Shown here: piece after piece, positions 1,131-13,863 of the stretch
How positions within the stretch are numbered: position 1 is the stretch's first letter
How the letters are laid out: each line of letters starts with the position of its first letter
Assembly: GCF_016889705.1 (NCBI RefSeq)
Contig: NZ_CP069526.1
Location: 7,203,001-7,267,000, forward strand
Source of the DNA: Amycolatopsis sp. FDAARGOS 1241
Lineage (GTDB): Bacteria > Actinomycetota > Actinomycetes > Mycobacteriales > Pseudonocardiaceae
Direction of reading: 5' to 3'
Length of the DNA: 64,000 nt
Notes under the pieces: model-generated
Seen by the model: only the letters and a program-made list of their open reading frames with translations
Told to the model about the DNA's origin: nothing
The model's database searches: none
Translations under genes and position numbers: made by a program

Positions 1131-1190
1131 ACGGCCGCCGACCCCGTGTCAAGGCACGCTTTCCCGTCTTGACACGGGGTCAGCGGCCGT
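1131..1190 (+). repeat. hairpin element copy A with conserved loop
   Basis: An inverted repeat. The inner arms of 13 bases (ACCCCGTGTCAAG with CTTGACACGGGGT) and outer arms of 8 bases (ACGGCCGC with GCGGCCGT) pair perfectly, separated by a 2-base mismatch (CG against CA). The 14-base loop is GCACGCTTTCCCGT. The hairpin is followed directly by AGTCACACTCG. A second copy at 5245-5304 has nearly the same loop and the same downstream flank but a different stem. There is no U-tract, so this is not a typical intrinsic terminator. Confidence 0.85.
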
Positions 1191-1222
1191 AGTCACACTC
1201 GCGCTTCGGGGTGCACACGCAC

Positions 1223-1340
1223 CGCAACACGCCCCGCGAGGGCCCGCATCACCCCACAACGCCTCGCAACCCGCCCCGCGCAGGCCCGCATCCCAACCAC
1301 AACACCCCGCAACCCGCCCCGCGAAGGACAACATCAGCAC
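1223..1340 (+). repeat. three imperfect direct repeats, period about 43 bp
   Basis: The sequence CGCAACMCGCCCCGCG, followed by a short purine-rich stretch and (in two copies) CCCGCATC, occurs at about 1223, 1265 and 1309. A similar word (CCCGCAACGCGCCCCG) appears near 4900 in the next gene-poor stretch. The DNA is C-rich on this strand. It overlaps the ragged 3' end of the decayed penicillin-binding protein gene. No coding or known regulatory role is visible. Confidence 0.5.
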
Positions 1341-3229
1341 CGAAGACCAGCCGCACCGACCCAGACCCTTCCCCCTCCACCGGAATCCCCCGAGAAGCCT
1401 CCACCATGAACTCCCTCCCAACATCCGCCGGCACCGAAGCCCCCACCACCTTCTTCCCCTCCGCATCGAACAGCCGCCGCTCATCATCCGACCCGGCCCA
1501 CACGGCCGTAGCCAGCTGAGGCGTATACCCCACCGCCCGAGCATCCTGATCATCAGCGGAATTCCCGTGCTGGAACTCCCCCGTCCGCAATGCCGCGGGC
1601 CTCCCATCCGGCAAGAACGTCTGCAGCACATTGGTCACCCCCGCAGCCACCTTCGCACTCGCCCCCTCGTCCTCGGAAACGCCGGCTGCGGATCGGAATC
1701 GTGCTCCCACACGACATTCCCCTCCCGATCCAGCACCTTGTCCACCAGATGCGGCGCCACCTTCACCTCGTGGTCGGCGAAGGTCGCATACGCACCCACG
1801 ACGTCCAACGGCCGCGACGGATATCGCCCCACCGCGATCCCGGACCCGATCAGGTAGCCGTCCTTCTCCCGCAACGTCGGCGTCCCGTCGACGTCGGCCG
1901 GAATCCCCGCGTCCCGCGCCGCCGCACTCACCGCGTCGGGCCCGAGCCGCTTCGCCAGCCCGAGGTACGGCGTGTCCGCGCCGACGTCATGGCCGTCCGC
2001 AGCGTGCACCTCGACGGGCATCGAGCCGGGTACGAGAAGTCCTCGCCCAGGAAGTCGATCTGCGCCGGCGCCGGCACCGGCTGGTCCGGCGACACCCCGG
2101 CCTGGATCCCACCCGCGAGCGTCAACGGGTAGAACGCCGACCCGAGCGTGGCCGGTCCCGGCGTAATCGCGCACGCCGTTCTCGCCGCCGTCGTACGCGC
2201 GCACCGCGCCCGGCGCCGGGTTCACGGACACGAGCGCGCCGCGGAACTCCTTCGGCTCGCTCTTGAGCCGGCCGACCAGCGCCGAGCGCGCGGCGGACTG
2301 GGCGGCCCGGTCCAAAGTGGTCAATACGACGAGGTTTCCCTGCTGCAGCCGGGAAAGCGGGAACCCGTCCTGTTCGAGCTCGCTGAGCACCTGCTGCTTC
2401 ACGTGGTACTCGCCGTACGTCACGCTCGCGCGCGTTCGGACGGCGGCAGGATCTCCTTGCCGGGATAGGACATCGCGGCAGCGTCGGCGCCCTTCACGTA
2501 GCCGCGTTCCACGAGCTTGTCGTGCACGTACCGCCAGCGCTTGGCCGCGTGCGCGTCGCCCGACACGGCCGGGTCGTGCACCGACGGCGACTGGATCATG
2601 CCGGCCAGGAACGCGGCTTCGCTCCAGGTCATGCTGTTGTCGAGCGGGCGGCCGAAGAACGCGTTCATCACGGCGGCCGGGCCGAACGTGCCGCGGCCGA
2701 ACGAGATGATGTTCACGTAGCTGGTGTAGATCTGCTCCTTGCTCTGCTGCTGCGTGATCTTCGTGGCCAGCACGAGTTCCTGGAGCTTGCGGGTGATCGT
2801 GGCGTCGTCGTCGCTGGTCGACTTCTTGATGTACTGCTGCGTGATCCCCGAACCACCGCCGACACCGGTGAGCAGCGCGCGGCCGATACCGGTGGGATCG
2901 AAGCCCGCGTTGTCCCAGAGCGTCGGGCCTTCGGTGCCGATGATCGCATCGCGCAGCTTCGCGGGCACCTTGTCGTAGGGCACGAACGAGCGATCACCGT
3001 CGGCGCGCAGCACCTTCAGGAGCTCACTGCCGTCGGAGTAGTTCAGCACCACGGTATTGTCGAGGGAGGCGAGCACGTCCTGCGGGCTGCGGACATCGAG
3101 CAGCAGGTAGGCGATCCAGAACGCGATCAGCGGCAGCCCGACGAAGACGCCGACGCGGGTGGCGTCGAGCGGCTCGGGCGTGGCACTGGCTGGGACTCCA
3201 TCCGGGTCGGCGTCCGTATCGGGTTGCAC
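1249..3229 (-). pseudogene. class A penicillin-binding protein (transglycosylase/transpeptidase), multiply frameshifted
   Basis: Starts at a GTG at 3229 with a short cytoplasmic N-terminus and one membrane segment (VFVGLPLIAFWIAYLLL). A glycosyltransferase-51 domain follows (GGSGITQQYIKKS, SFGRGTFGPAAVMNAFFGR, AFLAGMIQSPS). The reading frame then breaks at about 2420, 2130, 2030 and 1680; joining the pieces recovers most of a transpeptidase domain, with recognisable homology ending near 1380. The active-site motifs are also lost: SxxK reads SAFY, KTG(T) reads RTGE, and the ED pair of the transglycosylase motif reads EG. Intact homologues polymerise and cross-link peptidoglycan at the membrane. 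Because substitutions accompany the frameshifts, true decay is more likely than sequencing error alone. Confidence 0.8.
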
Positions 3230-3293
3230 GAATGGTCGACGACCGGACGGGTGGAAAGGTTGGAGGTCGGGTCAGAAATTCACGGAGCGCAGT

Positions 3294-4037
3294 TCAGGCC
3301 AGGAACGCACGGAGCAGCGACGCGGTGCCTTCGATGTGCTCGGCCATCGCCTGGCGCGCCGCGGCGGGGTCGCCCGCCAGGATGGCGTCGACGATGGCCG
3401 CGTGCTGGGCGTTGGAGTGCTCCAGGTTGGGCTCGAGCAGGGGGATGCGGTCGAGCAGCTGGTTCACGCGCGTACGGGCGTCGGCCATGGCCGTGGTGAG
3501 CGAACCCGACGCCGTGACTTCGGCGATCGCGAGGTGCAGGCGCGAGTCCTTGCGACGGTAGTCGGTGAGGCCGGCGGCCGCGGCCTCGGCGAGCGTGCTC
3601 GTGAGGTGGCGGCGGTCGGCGGGGCTGAGCGTGCGCGCGGCGGCGGCCTCGGCCGCGCCCGTCTCCAGCACGTAGCGCAGGCAGAGCGCGTCTTCGAACG
3701 CGGCGGCGTCGACATCGCCGGTGGCGCGTTCGCCCGGCTCGGGGAGTCGCTCGTTCACGAACGTGCCGCCGTAGCGGCCACGGCGCGACTCGACGTACCC
3801 GGCGTCTGCCAGCGCGCGGATGGCCTCCCGCAACGTCACGCGGCTGACCCCGAGGCGCTCGGCCAGCTCCCGCTCGGACGGCAGCCGCTCCCCCGCACCG
3901 ACGACCCCGAGGCGGATGGCCTGCAGCAGCCGTTCGACGGTCTCCTCGAAGGCGTTGCCGGCGCGCACCGGCCGGAACAGCGCCTGGTTCGCGCTCACCA
4001 CCGAGGTTTCCACGGGACCGAGTCTAGGCCTCTCCAT
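3294..4037 (-). CDS. GntR family regulator, FadR subfamily
   Basis: 247 residues. The N-terminal winged helix (about residues 25-85) contains LPSERELAERLGVSRVTLRE and a wing (SRRGRYGGTFV). The C-terminal all-helical FCD ligand domain carries metal-site histidines (HLAIAEVT, EHSNAQHAAIVDAI, MAEHIEGT). Such proteins usually repress catabolic genes and are released by small organic acids. The chosen ATG lies just beyond a 30-bp imperfect palindrome (4039-4068) that probably is its own operator. It is divergent from the ArsR-type gene at 4085. The target pathway is unknown. Confidence 0.88.
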   Translation of the reverse strand: MERPRLGPVETSVVSANQALFRPVRAGNAFEETVERLLQAIRLGVVGAGERLPSERELAERLGVSRVTLREAIRALADAGYVESRRGRYGGTFVNERLPEPGERATGDVDAAAFEDALCLRYVLETGAAEAAAARTLSPADRRHLTSTLAEAAAAGLTDYRRKDSRLHLAIAEVTASGSLTTAMADARTRVNQLLDRIPLLEPNLEHSNAQHAAIVDAILAGDPAAARQAMAEHIEGTASLLRAFLA

Positions 4038-4038
4038 T

Positions 4039-4068
4039 GCAGAGAACCCTTTGCAAAGAATCCTCTGC
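4039..4068. promoter_or_regulatory. 30-bp imperfect palindrome between divergent regulators
   Basis: The left half GCAGAGAACCCTTTG and the right half CAAAGAATCCTCTGC match in 12 of 15 positions when one is reverse-complemented; the centre is TTTGCAAA. It lies immediately upstream of the FadR-type start codon (4037) and 17 bases before the divergent start at 4085, so a dimeric regulator bound here would cover both promoters. Autoregulation by the FadR-type protein is inferred. Confidence 0.6.
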
Positions 4069-4084
4069 GGTCTACAGTGGTGGC

Positions 4085-4693
4085 ATGAGGCCTCAGGGAC
4101 GCACCGAACGGATCCTCGACGCACGGACCCTGCGCGCGCTCGCCCACCCGCTCCGGATGCGCCTGCTGGACCTCCTCGAACGCGACGGCCCCGCGACGGC
4201 CACTGGCTTGGGCAAGCGCGTCGGCGAGAGCTCCGGCACGACGTCCTGGCACCTGCGCCAACTGGCCGACGCCGGCCTCGTCGCGGAAGACCCCGGTCGG
4301 GGCTCAAAACGCGAGCGCTGGTGGAAAGCCGCGCAGGACTCGACAACCATGCGCGCCGGTGACTTCACGGGTGACCCGGAACTGGCCGGGCACCTGGCTT
4401 CGTTCCTGCACCAGCTCGTGGTGCAGCGCTACGAGGAGGAGGCGCGGTTCGTCGCCGAGCTCCCGCGGTGGCAGGACCGTTGGGAACAGAACGCCTCGAT
4501 GGCCAGCAACCAGCTCTCCCTCACGCCCGAAGAGGCCCGGCGGATGTCCGACGACATCCTCGCCGTGGTCGACCGCTACCGTCGCCCCGCCCGCCCGGGC
4601 GACGACGCGGTGGTCACCCACTGGGCCGCGTTCCCGCGCACCGCCCACCCGGAACCCGCACCCGACTCCACCGAAGAACTGGGGACCCCATGA
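4085..4693 (+). CDS. ArsR-type winged-helix transcriptional regulator
   Basis: 202 residues. The N-terminal HTH_20/ArsR-like domain (about residues 10-85) reads LRALAHPLRMRLLDLL with recognition region SSGTTSWHLRQLADAGLV and wing GRGSKRERWWKA. The C-terminal part is helical (HLASFLHQLVVQRYEEEARF) with no metal-binding cysteines, so it is probably not a metal sensor. The next gene starts inside its stop codon (ATGA), which indicates translational coupling. It is divergent from the FadR-type regulator. Confidence 0.88.
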   Translation: MRPQGRTERILDARTLRALAHPLRMRLLDLLERDGPATATGLGKRVGESSGTTSWHLRQLADAGLVAEDPGRGSKRERWWKAAQDSTTMRAGDFTGDPELAGHLASFLHQLVVQRYEEEARFVAELPRWQDRWEQNASMASNQLSLTPEEARRMSDDILAVVDRYRRPARPGDDAVVTHWAAFPRTAHPEPAPDSTEELGTP

Positions 4694-4881
4694 CTCCGCA
4701 CGACTTCACCGAACACTTCGTCCACGCCCGCCAAGCCGAGCTCCGCGCCGCCGCCTCCCGCCGCCGACGGCCCCGCAGCCTGCACACGCCCCGCCAACGC
4801 CTCGGCTGGCTCCTGGTCCACACCGGCCTCCGCCTGGTGACCGACCGGAAAGATCGCACGCCGATCACCCTGCCCGCCTGA
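4690..4881 (+). CDS. small basic protein of unknown function
   Basis: 63 residues, ATG overlapping the stop of the preceding regulator (ATGA). It is rich in arginine and histidine (RRRRPRSLHTPRQRLGWLL). No transmembrane segment or cysteine motif is seen. Small genes of this kind follow ArsR-like regulators in many actinomycetes; the coupling suggests a related role, perhaps as a partner of the regulator. Function unknown. Confidence 0.7.
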   Translation: MTPHDFTEHFVHARQAELRAAASRRRRPRSLHTPRQRLGWLLVHTGLRLVTDRKDRTPITLPA

Positions 4882-4930
4882 CACGGCAACGAAACCGCAA
4901 CCCCGCAACGCGCCCCGACGGCACCACCCA

Positions 4931-5061
4931 CCCCCTCGGCACCTCACCAATCACCGGCCGACAAGCCACCACATCGGACCCCCAGGCCCCTCGGCACCCC
5001 ACCAACCGCCAGCCGGCAACGCACGAGGCGGGACCACCCAGCCCCCTCGGCACCTCACCAA
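4931..5061 (+). repeat. three direct repeats of about 19 bp, period about 56 bp
   Basis: CCCCTCGGCACCTCACCAA occurs at about 4932, 4987 (one mismatch) and 5043. The spacers are unrelated except for a general CCGGCC character. There are only three copies with unequal context, and no role is apparent. Confidence 0.55.
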
Positions 5062-5244
5062 CCCGCCGGCCAACAACTCACCACGCGGGACAGCCAGCCC
5101 CCTCCTGAAACGCCGCCCGCAACCCACCACGAGGATCAACCCCCACACCGGCGAGCCCTCCGCCCCACCCAAAACCGCCGGCCAACTACGGATCACGGGG
5201 GACCGCCCAGCCCCCTCCCTGCGGCCCCGATCCGCAGCCGGCAC

Positions 5245-5304
5245 ACGTTTTGGGGCCGTTCGTCAAGGTACGCTTTCCCGCCTTGACGAACGGCCCCAAA
5301 ACGT
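5245..5304 (+). repeat. hairpin element copy B with conserved loop
   Basis: A perfect 23-base inverted repeat (arms 5245-5267 and 5282-5304) around the 14-base loop GTACGCTTTCCCGC. The arms end in TCAAG and CTTGA at the loop, as in copy A, but the remaining stem sequence differs completely (it contains GGGGCCGTTCG). The downstream flank AGTCACACTCG is shared with copy A. The two copies lie in the same orientation, about 4.1 kb apart. Confidence 0.85.
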
Positions 5305-5524
5305 AGTCACACTCGGCTGTCGGGGTGCCGTCCCACACCCACCCGAAACCACACGGCCACCGCCGGCCGAACACCACCCACTCACCGCCGCCAAACCCCC
5401 CACAGCCAGGCGACACCCCACCAGCCACCGCCAGGCCAACCGGCCAACGACCACCGCGACCCGAACCCCACGATCACCGCCGGACCGAACGCCCACGATC
5501 ACCGCAACGGCAACCGCAACACCC

Positions 5525-6895
5525 TCAACACTCGATCACATTCACCGCAAGCCCACCCCTCGCAGTCTCCTTGTACTTCACCGACATATCAGCGCCGGTC
5601 TCCCGCATCGTCTTGATCGCCTTGTCCAGCGTCACCACATGGCTACCGTCGCCACGCATCGCCATCCGCGCCGCGTGAATCGCCTTCGAAGCCCCGACCG
5701 CGTTCCGTTCGATACAGGGAATCTGCACCAACCCACCCACGGGATCACACGTCAGCCCGAGGTGGTGCTCAACTCCGATCTCGGCGGCGTTCTCCACCTG
5801 AGCCGGCGAGCCGCCCAGCACCTCCGTCAACCCGGCCGCCGCCATCGCCGAAGCGGAGCCGACTTCACCCTGGCAGCCGACTTCGGCGCCCGAGATCGAC
5901 CCGGTCTGCTTGAGGATCGAGCCGATCGCGCCGGCCGTGAGCAGGAATGTGACGATGCCGGCGTCCGACGCACCGCGGATGAAGCGCTGGTAGTAGTGCA
6001 GCACGGCCGGGATGATCCCTGCGGCGCCGTTCGTCGGGGCCGTGACCACGCGACCGCCCGCGGCGTTCTCCTCGTTGACCGCCAGTGCATACAGGCTGAC
6101 CCAGTCCATGGCGTACAACGGGTCGTCCGCGCCGTCCTCGGCGATCAGCTTGTCGTGCAACGCCTTCGCGCGCCGCGGGACCTTCAGGCCGCCCGGGAGC
6201 ACCCCCTCGTGGTGGATGCCGGCCTCGACGCACGAAGCCATCACGGCCCAGATCTCCAGGAGACCCGCACGCACCTCGGACTCGGAGCGCCACGACAGTT
6301 CGTTCGCCAGCATGATCTCGCTGACCGACAGCTCCGTCGACGCGCAGTGCGCCAGCAGGTCCGCGCCCGTCCGGAACGGGTACGGCACCGGCGTCGCGTC
6401 CTCGACGAACACCGCGTCCGTCTCGTACGACTCGTCCCGCACGAACCCGCCGCCGACGGAGTAGTACGTCCGCGAACGCACCTCCGCCGCGCCCGCGAAT
6501 GCCCGGAACACCATCCCGTTCGGGTGTGCCGGCAGCGATGTGCGCCGGTGCATCGTCAGGTCGGTGTCCTCGTCGAACGCGATCTCCCGCGCTCCGCCGA
6601 GCAGCAGGCGGCCCGACGTCCGGATCTCGGAAACCCGGGCGGGCACGGTGTCGGTGTCCACCGACTCCGGACGCTCACCCGAAAGCCCCAGCAGCACGGC
6701 CTTGTCGCTGCCGTGGCCGAAGCCGGTGGCGCCGAGCGAGCCGAACAGCTCCGCCTGCACTCGCGTCACGCGGTCCAGGACGCCGTCGTCGGCGAGACCG
6801 TCCACAAAGGTCCGCGCAGCCCGCATCGGGCCGACGGTGTGCGAGCTCGACGGCCCGATGCCGATGGAGAACAGGTCGAAGACGCTGATCGCCAT
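5525..6895 (-). CDS. sdaA: L-serine ammonia-lyase, iron-sulfur dependent
   Basis: 456 residues, the usual length of single-chain L-serine dehydratase. It converts L-serine to pyruvate and ammonia in the cytoplasm with a [4Fe-4S] cluster. N-terminal beta domain starts [20 protein letters not shown]; the alpha domain has the SIGAxGxxxK-type region and the cysteine motif around [33 protein letters not shown]. It is the last gene of the glycine operon, 17 bases after lipA. In this setting it drains serine made from glycine into central metabolism. Confidence 0.96.
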
Positions 6896-13605: not shown

Positions 13606-13783
13606 CTCCCCCTCTGTCATGGGCACCTGAGAGTTTCACCGCGCAACGCGGCTTTCACCTTGGGTGAGGCGCGGGTGCGCCTGCTTTCCAGAGTGGCCTC
13701 GCACGAAGCGGTAGTGGGTACCTGAGAGATTCCGGGGAGTTTGCTCCTTCGGTGCCCCACTGGTCACATGGGGCTCTCCCGCT
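13606..13783 (-). promoter_or_regulatory. tandem glycine riboswitch (gcvT motif)
   Basis: On the minus strand, aptamer 1 shows GCGGGAGAGCCCC, then CACCGAAGGAGCAAAC and AATCTCTCAGGTACC, all signature words of the gcvT RNA. Aptamer 2 has CTCTGGAAAG, ACCCAAGGTGAAAG, AAACTCTCAGGTGCC and closes with ACAGAGGGGGAG, its P1 stem formed by CTCTG with CAGAG. The two aptamers follow one another just before gcvP. In this class glycine binding usually turns expression on. The expression platform is probably at translation initiation, as no terminator is obvious. Confidence 0.92.
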
Positions 13784-13863
13784 CCTGCTCGAACGGCCCG
13801 GTATGCAGTTGGGTGTGCGGCCACGGTACCTGCCGCTTCACTCGGCAGTCTACCTCGGACGGT

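Follow-up and report, generated by a model that had tools for sequence, protein, structure and literature searches.

Here we report on two long hairpins in a 64,000-nucleotide stretch of DNA from Amycolatopsis sp. FDAARGOS 1241 (contig NZ_CP069526.1, positions 7,203,001 to 7,267,000; hereafter the window), on the repeat family to which they belong, and on hairpins of the same design in actinomycete integrative and conjugative elements (AICEs). Both hairpins are present where the initial annotation had placed them, with a common loop and the common right flank TAGTCACACTCG: copy A occupies 1131-1190 and copy B 5245-5304 (window positions, read from the sequence). Constant-loop hairpins of this kind are a large repeat family spread over Amycolatopsis chromosomes, and the two described here are probably related to second-strand origins of AICEs that replicate by rolling circle.

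Each hairpin is the core of a larger element of about 109 bp on the forward strand, complete in copy A at 1108-1216 (outer stem, internal loop, long stem and terminal loop; R1 match G000:C1:7204108-7204216, E 1.4e-30, G000 being the genome that holds the window) and in copy B at 5221-5330 (R1 match G000:C1:7208221-7208330, E 2.2e-25). An outer stem, which in copy A is formed by GCACC (1108-1112) and GGTGC (1210-1214) and which is 95.2% paired among 21 copies, encloses the long stem. The arms of the long stem, assigned from sequence and folding, lie at 1131-1153 and 1168-1190 in copy A and at 5245-5267 and 5282-5304 in copy B; between them lie the conserved loops, GCACGCTTTCCCGT (1154-1167) and GTACGCTTTCCCGC (5268-5281), both located by a loop-word scan of the window. 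The right arm is followed by a 3' internal-loop strand, AGTCACACTCG (1191-1201 and 5305-5315), which is mostly conserved in the alignment of copies. The stems had been described as fully paired, which holds for the 23 uninterrupted pairs of copy B and not for copy A, whose stem consists of 8 + 14 bp on either side of a single C.A mismatch (1139.1182). RNA folding z-scores on the forward strand were -6.7 for copy A and -8.4 for copy B, far better than shuffled sequence. The loop word at up to two mismatches is not unusual in the window alone (2 found vs 3.2 expected), and no T-run follows the stem in either copy, the 3' flank being AGTCACACTCG.

The segment between the copies contains a penicillin-binding-protein-like gene (identified by eye; 1249-3229, reverse strand) that is broken across several reading frames and probably decayed, in a region that aligns to many genomes of the same genus. 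The attention that the initial annotation gave to this 4.1-kb segment is not borne out, copies A and B being merely two of at least 50 copies. A search of the window against Rfam returned no match to the hairpins at gathering score; its sole match was a glycine riboswitch aptamer (RF00504, 53.6 bits, 13699-13791, reverse strand).

The exact 11-base loop core occurs 28 times in G000 (9.8 Mb), compared with five occurrences of the reversed pattern, and 25 of the 28 sites are family members by eye, the other three being L008, L014 and L024. A 24-base core with at most one mismatch was found 38 times, against none for the control. A covariance model was built from 21 copies (L003, L010, L011 and L027 being left out of the 25 aligned) and recognized at least 50 distinct places in G000 at E < 1e-16; this count is a lower bound, as scoring covered 150 of the 9588 first-look candidates and neither weaker matches nor opposite-strand echoes of the palindrome were counted. 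The initial description of a structured, repeated and REP-like (repetitive extragenic palindromic) intergenic element with a conserved loop is thus supported: the loop word is not confined to the two sites in the window, and the stems of the further copies pair. In the rest of the genus, the same model matched 22 of 23 genomes at E <= 0.01 (G013 was without any), with up to 90 or more matches per relative, both strands counted. Outside the genus, one of 16 genomes gave a match, and it was weak (G034, E 0.003, within a coding region by eye). Of 396 genomes from across the phylum, only G000 contained the 24-base core at one mismatch or fewer, and none of the 395 others did. A wider contig collection yielded at least 119 stretches with the loop pattern; among the 80 matches listed, 78 belonged to Amycolatopsis and two to Bacillota bins. 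The strict loop pattern had no matches in viral contigs, and the hairpin region of L067 had none among plasmids. The two Bacillota bins, L111 (at about 6110-6145) and L118 (at about 300-335), share an identical 26-mer, GTCAAGGTACGCTTTCCAGCCTTGAC. It sits in different surroundings, within about 110 mutually similar bases that do not resemble the Amycolatopsis element, and at up to three mismatches it occupies one and three places per genome, respectively.

Outermost in the element is a stem of GCACC/GGTGC or related sequence; inside it come a 3' internal strand that is conserved, being AGTCACA in most copies, a long variable stem and a constant loop. The top of the long stem (GTCAAG/CTTGAC) is likewise constant, and the remainder varies. 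Among the 21 copies of the model, 94.0% of the cells were paired, a measure on which the tested structure is favoured over slid versions because it was derived from these same sequences. Changes on both sides were found at 19 of 28 pairs, with 71 cells altered on both sides compared with nine on one side, and none of 500 shuffles reached any of five measures. A further count of 644 stem cells in 28 of 34 copies (not included were L054, L056 and L010, which the script overlooked, and L053, L058 and L005, which have fewer than 18 pairs) comprised 608 Watson-Crick pairs, 10 G.T pairs and 26 others, 12 of which lie at the position of the C.A mismatch in copy A. Six of the ten G.T cells are at the outermost pair, leaving four inside the stem. 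G.T thus makes up 28% (10/36) of the non-Watson-Crick cells, compared with 20% (15-24%) when partners are redealt, a slight excess that stems from the outermost pair and is absent inside the stem. The rarity of G.T points to a DNA hairpin, without proving it. The covariation that was expected from the initial annotation is present, but selection for structure, to which it was attributed there, is one explanation among others, since template switching between the arms yields the same pattern (PMC8794818), and covariation with few wobble pairs fits either process. Given the few G.T pairs, arm-to-arm copying of DNA may keep the stems matched.

On the chromosome, a crude gene finder allowed 28 of 30 flanked copies to be assigned to a setting, giving 17 in convergent, 10 in tandem and one in divergent gene gaps, an excess of convergent gaps over one third (binomial p 0.003); copies A and B each lie between convergent genes. 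Genome G044 is 81-87% identical in this region, and its gaps, inspected by eye, hold other repeats: a different inverted repeat fills the gap of copy A, and in the gap matching copy B (window 4881-5523; L217) other palindromes, with repeats of the GGGACCGTTCGCCCAGCGAAGGTCCC type, form an array. The covariance model found no match in either gap. Across a 400-kb alignment of G012 with G042, two elements were recognized by the model in G012 and none in G042. One of these sites measures 459 bp in G012 and 75 bp in G042, the longer stretch being a mosaic of three palindromic repeats that includes the present family (by eye); the second element lies outside the blocks aligned with G042. Lagging-strand insertion would lead one to expect a strand bias between chromosome halves, and the bias seen was unconvincing (16/9 and 11/14, with halves set without a located replication origin). 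Several further features of the setting were noted. A 2.2-Mb stretch (G000:C1 3331377-5537854) is free of all 50 elements. Some copies (L021/L022, L006, L010 and L020) are arranged as inverted pairs with a spacing of about 190-230 bp, the two members having different stems, and a small second hairpin (GTTGCGC-GCCA-GCGCAAC, with covarying versions) lies 3' of the element at L005, L009, L012, L028 and A. orientalis loci. Over 800 kb, the G012 and G042 stretches (L268-L307) contain 43 hairpins with scores of at least 17, including families that have TCAGA at the centre and families with CCACATTGGG units.

The connection with AICEs, which cannot be seen from the window sequence alone and is for that reason absent from the initial annotation, emerged in genomes with few copies, where the hairpins have a common flank. 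Six of ten such low-copy regions (L087-L092) hold an integrated element with a RepSA gene, and L093-L096 show no RepSA; Pfam matches in example elements include RepSA (PF20199, E 1.5e-97), FtsK_SpoIIIE and Phage_integrase. At L087, the one locus where the attachment site (att) repeat was mapped, an exact duplicate of 40 bp or more of a tRNA-Gly gene bounds the element 134 bp beyond the hairpin. Because L087-L092 had been located through the hairpin, a reverse search was begun from RepSA genes, using 18 of 19 near-full-length Amycolatopsis loci (G002:C382 was left out). Fifteen of these comprised seven with a model match 5.9-9.5 kb upstream of rep and eight without; three further loci with a hairpin (L090; G007, at 8.2 kb; G012, at 7.9 kb) bring the total to 10 of 18, five of which were known beforehand (L323, L326, L090, G007 and G012). 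The hairpin points the same way relative to rep in every one of the 15 Amycolatopsis loci for which the positions of the two are available, namely the ten positive loci of the reverse search together with L087, L088, L089, L091 and L092.

Hairpins of the same design accompany RepSA in other lineages. Genome G027, from another family of the order, has four RepSA matches, each with a long hairpin 6.3-11.3 kb upstream that has the stem top GGTCAA/TTGACC, and this hairpin pattern occurs at exactly four places in 8.9 Mb; two matches to the pattern in G451 had no long stem and were dropped. RepSA was detected at E <= 1e-60 in 69 of 296 genomes of the class, the survey counts being lower bounds with at most four candidates scored per genome. 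Forty loci were taken, in two sets of 20 (at L365 the sequence upstream of rep is limited to about 340 bases, L367 is truncated and L370 is partly masked). In one set, 15 loci carry one of two shared loops: the type-G loop ACCGGGCGSCAGCCCGCAG, at L371-L381 with stems of 7-27 bp, and the N-type loop GGAGCGCCCCACCGGACGAACG with close variants, found at L369, L382, L385 and L386, in plasmid pMR2 and in Nonomuraea. The pMR2 hairpin, of the same design, lies about 300 bp past the integrase gene. No such loop was seen in a Nocardia RepSA record. In six genomes, chosen partly because the loop had already been seen there, each of the 13 RepSA loci of the survey has the type-G loop on the rep strand, at a distance of 4.4-8.2 kb upstream of the gene. 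In eight genomes with 20 RepSA matches, 6 of 15 matches to the N-type loop lie 5.0-10.4 kb upstream of a RepSA gene and on its strand; a seventh N-type locus, L385, has a shorter loop. Among 14 type-G sequences, 6 of 13 pairs are altered on both sides, with 16 both-side and no one-side cells, and 193 of 210 stem cells are Watson-Crick, compared with a mean of 129 and a maximum of 170 in shuffles; for the N type 120 of 126 cells pair, but the shuffled maximum is likewise 120 (six sequences only). These loci show that the hairpin is linked to AICEs of several families, in position and in orientation. In the second set of 20, L350, L352 and L355, which belong to another AICE group, carry a weaker hairpin about 3.3 kb upstream of RepSA, with a stem like GGGCCGGATC and the loop TCGTCGGGGG; L351 has a stem resembling GGGCCGGATC and a different loop.

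To our knowledge, it is not settled how the single strand of an AICE is converted to double strand. RepSA drives the rolling-circle replication of AICEs (PMC3218068). Rolling-circle plasmids and ICEBs1 have a single-strand origin (sso) that is folded and orientation-specific; it is functional in ICEBs1 (PMC4595007) and goes by the name sti in pIJ101 (PMC4170104). The reading we favour, with moderate confidence, is that the window hairpins are copies of a cis-acting AICE DNA hairpin with an sso-type role, and that the roughly 50 chromosomal copies are its dispersed descendants. Being long, oriented, present once and placed with att on one side and the tra-rep genes on the other, the AICE hairpin fits an sso role best and is probably the second-strand origin of these rolling-circle elements. 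A hairpin-bearing AICE carries one such hairpin, towards att on the side away from the integrase and on the rep-like strand. After excision and rolling-circle replication via RepSA, the displaced single strand would form the hairpin, and its constant loop, now exposed, would recruit a host primase or polymerase that starts the second strand. Derivatives would have dispersed to the 3' ends of Amycolatopsis genes, their stems staying matched partly through template switching between the arms. That the chromosomal copies descend from AICE hairpins is suggested by the G027 pattern, which occurs only by RepSA genes, and by the type-G loop, which mostly does so. A broader proposal is more tentative, if still quite possible: rolling-circle AICEs of several actinomycete families would share a hairpin with a lineage-constant loop and a closely paired stem that is element-specific even among co-resident AICEs, the loop being recognized, the stem being either rewritten through template switching between the arms or an identity tag, and the hairpin having escaped to the chromosome in Amycolatopsis.

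In its likeness to known origins (sti of pIJ101, sso1 of ICEBs1, ssoA of the pMV158 type), the hairpin is a long non-coding palindrome on an element with a rolling-circle initiator, and its orientation relative to rep is fixed in most lineages examined (15/15 in Amycolatopsis, 13/13 in type G, 6/6 for N-type loops beside RepSA). It differs from them in having a constant loop on a freely varying stem, in its dispersal over the chromosome and in the lack of a convincing CS-6 box. Like the cis sites of pSAM2, pMR2 and pMEA300, it lies within an att-tra-rep-xis-int element, towards att; unlike those sites as described, it has no counterpart in the part of PMC3218068 drawn on here. No similar loop was seen by eye in pIJ101, in a comparison in which sti was not mapped. 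A description of such a hairpin was not found in an open-access library at the level of titles and the beginnings of abstracts, which does not show that none exists.

Several results weigh against the favoured reading. The ssoA box is TAGCGt/a (PMC10333310), and the nearest approach to this CS-6 sequence is AAGCGT on the complement of the Amycolatopsis loop (5/6); the loops of the other lineages have no CS-6 box by inspection, and loops from different lineages are too unlike one another for one motif. At eight of the 18 Amycolatopsis RepSA loci (L312, L313, L314, L320, L321, L322, L324 and L325), lowering the threshold still revealed no hairpin of the family, and the second set of 20 survey loci has no shared-loop hairpin at the main threshold, so the hairpin is not universal in RepSA AICEs. 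Only one of the 50 G000 copies (1028227) is near a RepSA gene, and that gene is broken (1035831-1037400). The four G027 loops differ on the rep strand, two reading TCGTGGGGTGTCGG and two being pyrimidine-rich, so that orientation may not be fixed there. A target duplication was not readable at the one presence/absence pair, G012/G042, where the ends are blurred by the repeat mosaic, and 7 of 20 type-G loop matches are not beside a RepSA gene found in the survey. One of these seven is a spacer in an array of clustered regularly interspaced short palindromic repeats (L392, G567:C1 near 1582022; 41 repeats in a 3-kb stretch), which holds the loop of a type-G AICE hairpin and the first bases of an arm.

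The excess of convergent gaps (17 of 28 classified copies, p 0.003 vs one third), and the other palindromes that occupy the same gaps in G044, would also suit bidirectional terminators or 3'-end stabilisers that stop converging transcripts and insulate the AICE end from neighbouring genes. As GC-rich hairpins between convergent genes, the elements do resemble intrinsic terminators, but their stem has no T-run after it, a terminator would need neither the constant loop nor the conserved internal-loop strand, and at the Amycolatopsis and type-G loci examined the AICE hairpin keeps one orientation. The 3'-end bias is equally expected from harmless insertion, and we consider this explanation unlikely. 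A self-contained mobile palindrome, resembling REPs and bacterial interspersed mosaic elements (BIMEs) or miniature inverted-repeat transposable elements, moved by an enzyme not identified here and only secondarily present in AICEs, seems to us rather less than likely, at the level of an outside chance. It would account for the 50 or more dispersed copies in G000 and the 90 or more matches on both strands in relatives, for the presence/absence difference between related genomes, and for the inverted pairs and the mosaics with other palindromes; with REPs and BIMEs the family shares its intergenic position, mainly 3' of genes, its many copies, its inverted pairs and its mosaics with other repeats. 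In REPs, the hairpin foot bears a GTAG-type tetranucleotide on the 5' side; here GTAG is found at the 3' foot of many copies, and CTAC on the other strand. Against a self-contained mobile palindrome stand the G027 pattern, found only near RepSA genes, and the presence/absence pair, in whose repeat mosaic no target duplication or clean ends could be read. The family further differs from REPs with a REP-associated tyrosine transposase (RAYT) in its longer stems of unrelated sequence and its carriage on AICEs. A TnpA-REP transposase had been thought of from the start; Pfam Y1_Tnp (PF01797) has no match in G000 and was positive in 5 of 14 control genomes, and a RAYT/REP origin was rejected.

Co-resident AICEs differ in their stems under a common loop or stem top (four in G643, four in G027), as would be expected if the hairpin were a transfer or recognition site, for instance for the FtsK-like Tra translocase or a regulator, and the variable stem distinguished the elements. 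Divergence and arm-to-arm correction yield different stems without specificity, and Tra sites are short direct repeats; we think this improbable. A structured RNA, regulatory or small, with conserved loop and pairing, is in our view the most remote of the possibilities, even though the covariation is strong, folding energies are low and G.T forms 10 of 36 non-Watson-Crick cells against an expected 20% or so, a slight excess owed to the outermost pair. Within the stem G.T is rare (4 cells in 28 copies), and both-side changes far outnumber one-side changes (71 vs 9 in Amycolatopsis, 16 vs 0 in type G). The small RNA considered in the initial annotation thus found no backing, there being no Rfam family and few G.T pairs (10 of 644 stem cells), and an RNA family was rejected.

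For the study of second-strand synthesis in AICEs, the hairpins supply concrete sites from several families, one of them on the small plasmid pMR2. Their constant loops and variable stems form a natural case for separating selection from template switching between arms. If the favoured reading, a single-strand origin carried by AICEs, is true, the dispersed copies would explain the origin of the large repeat family of Amycolatopsis.

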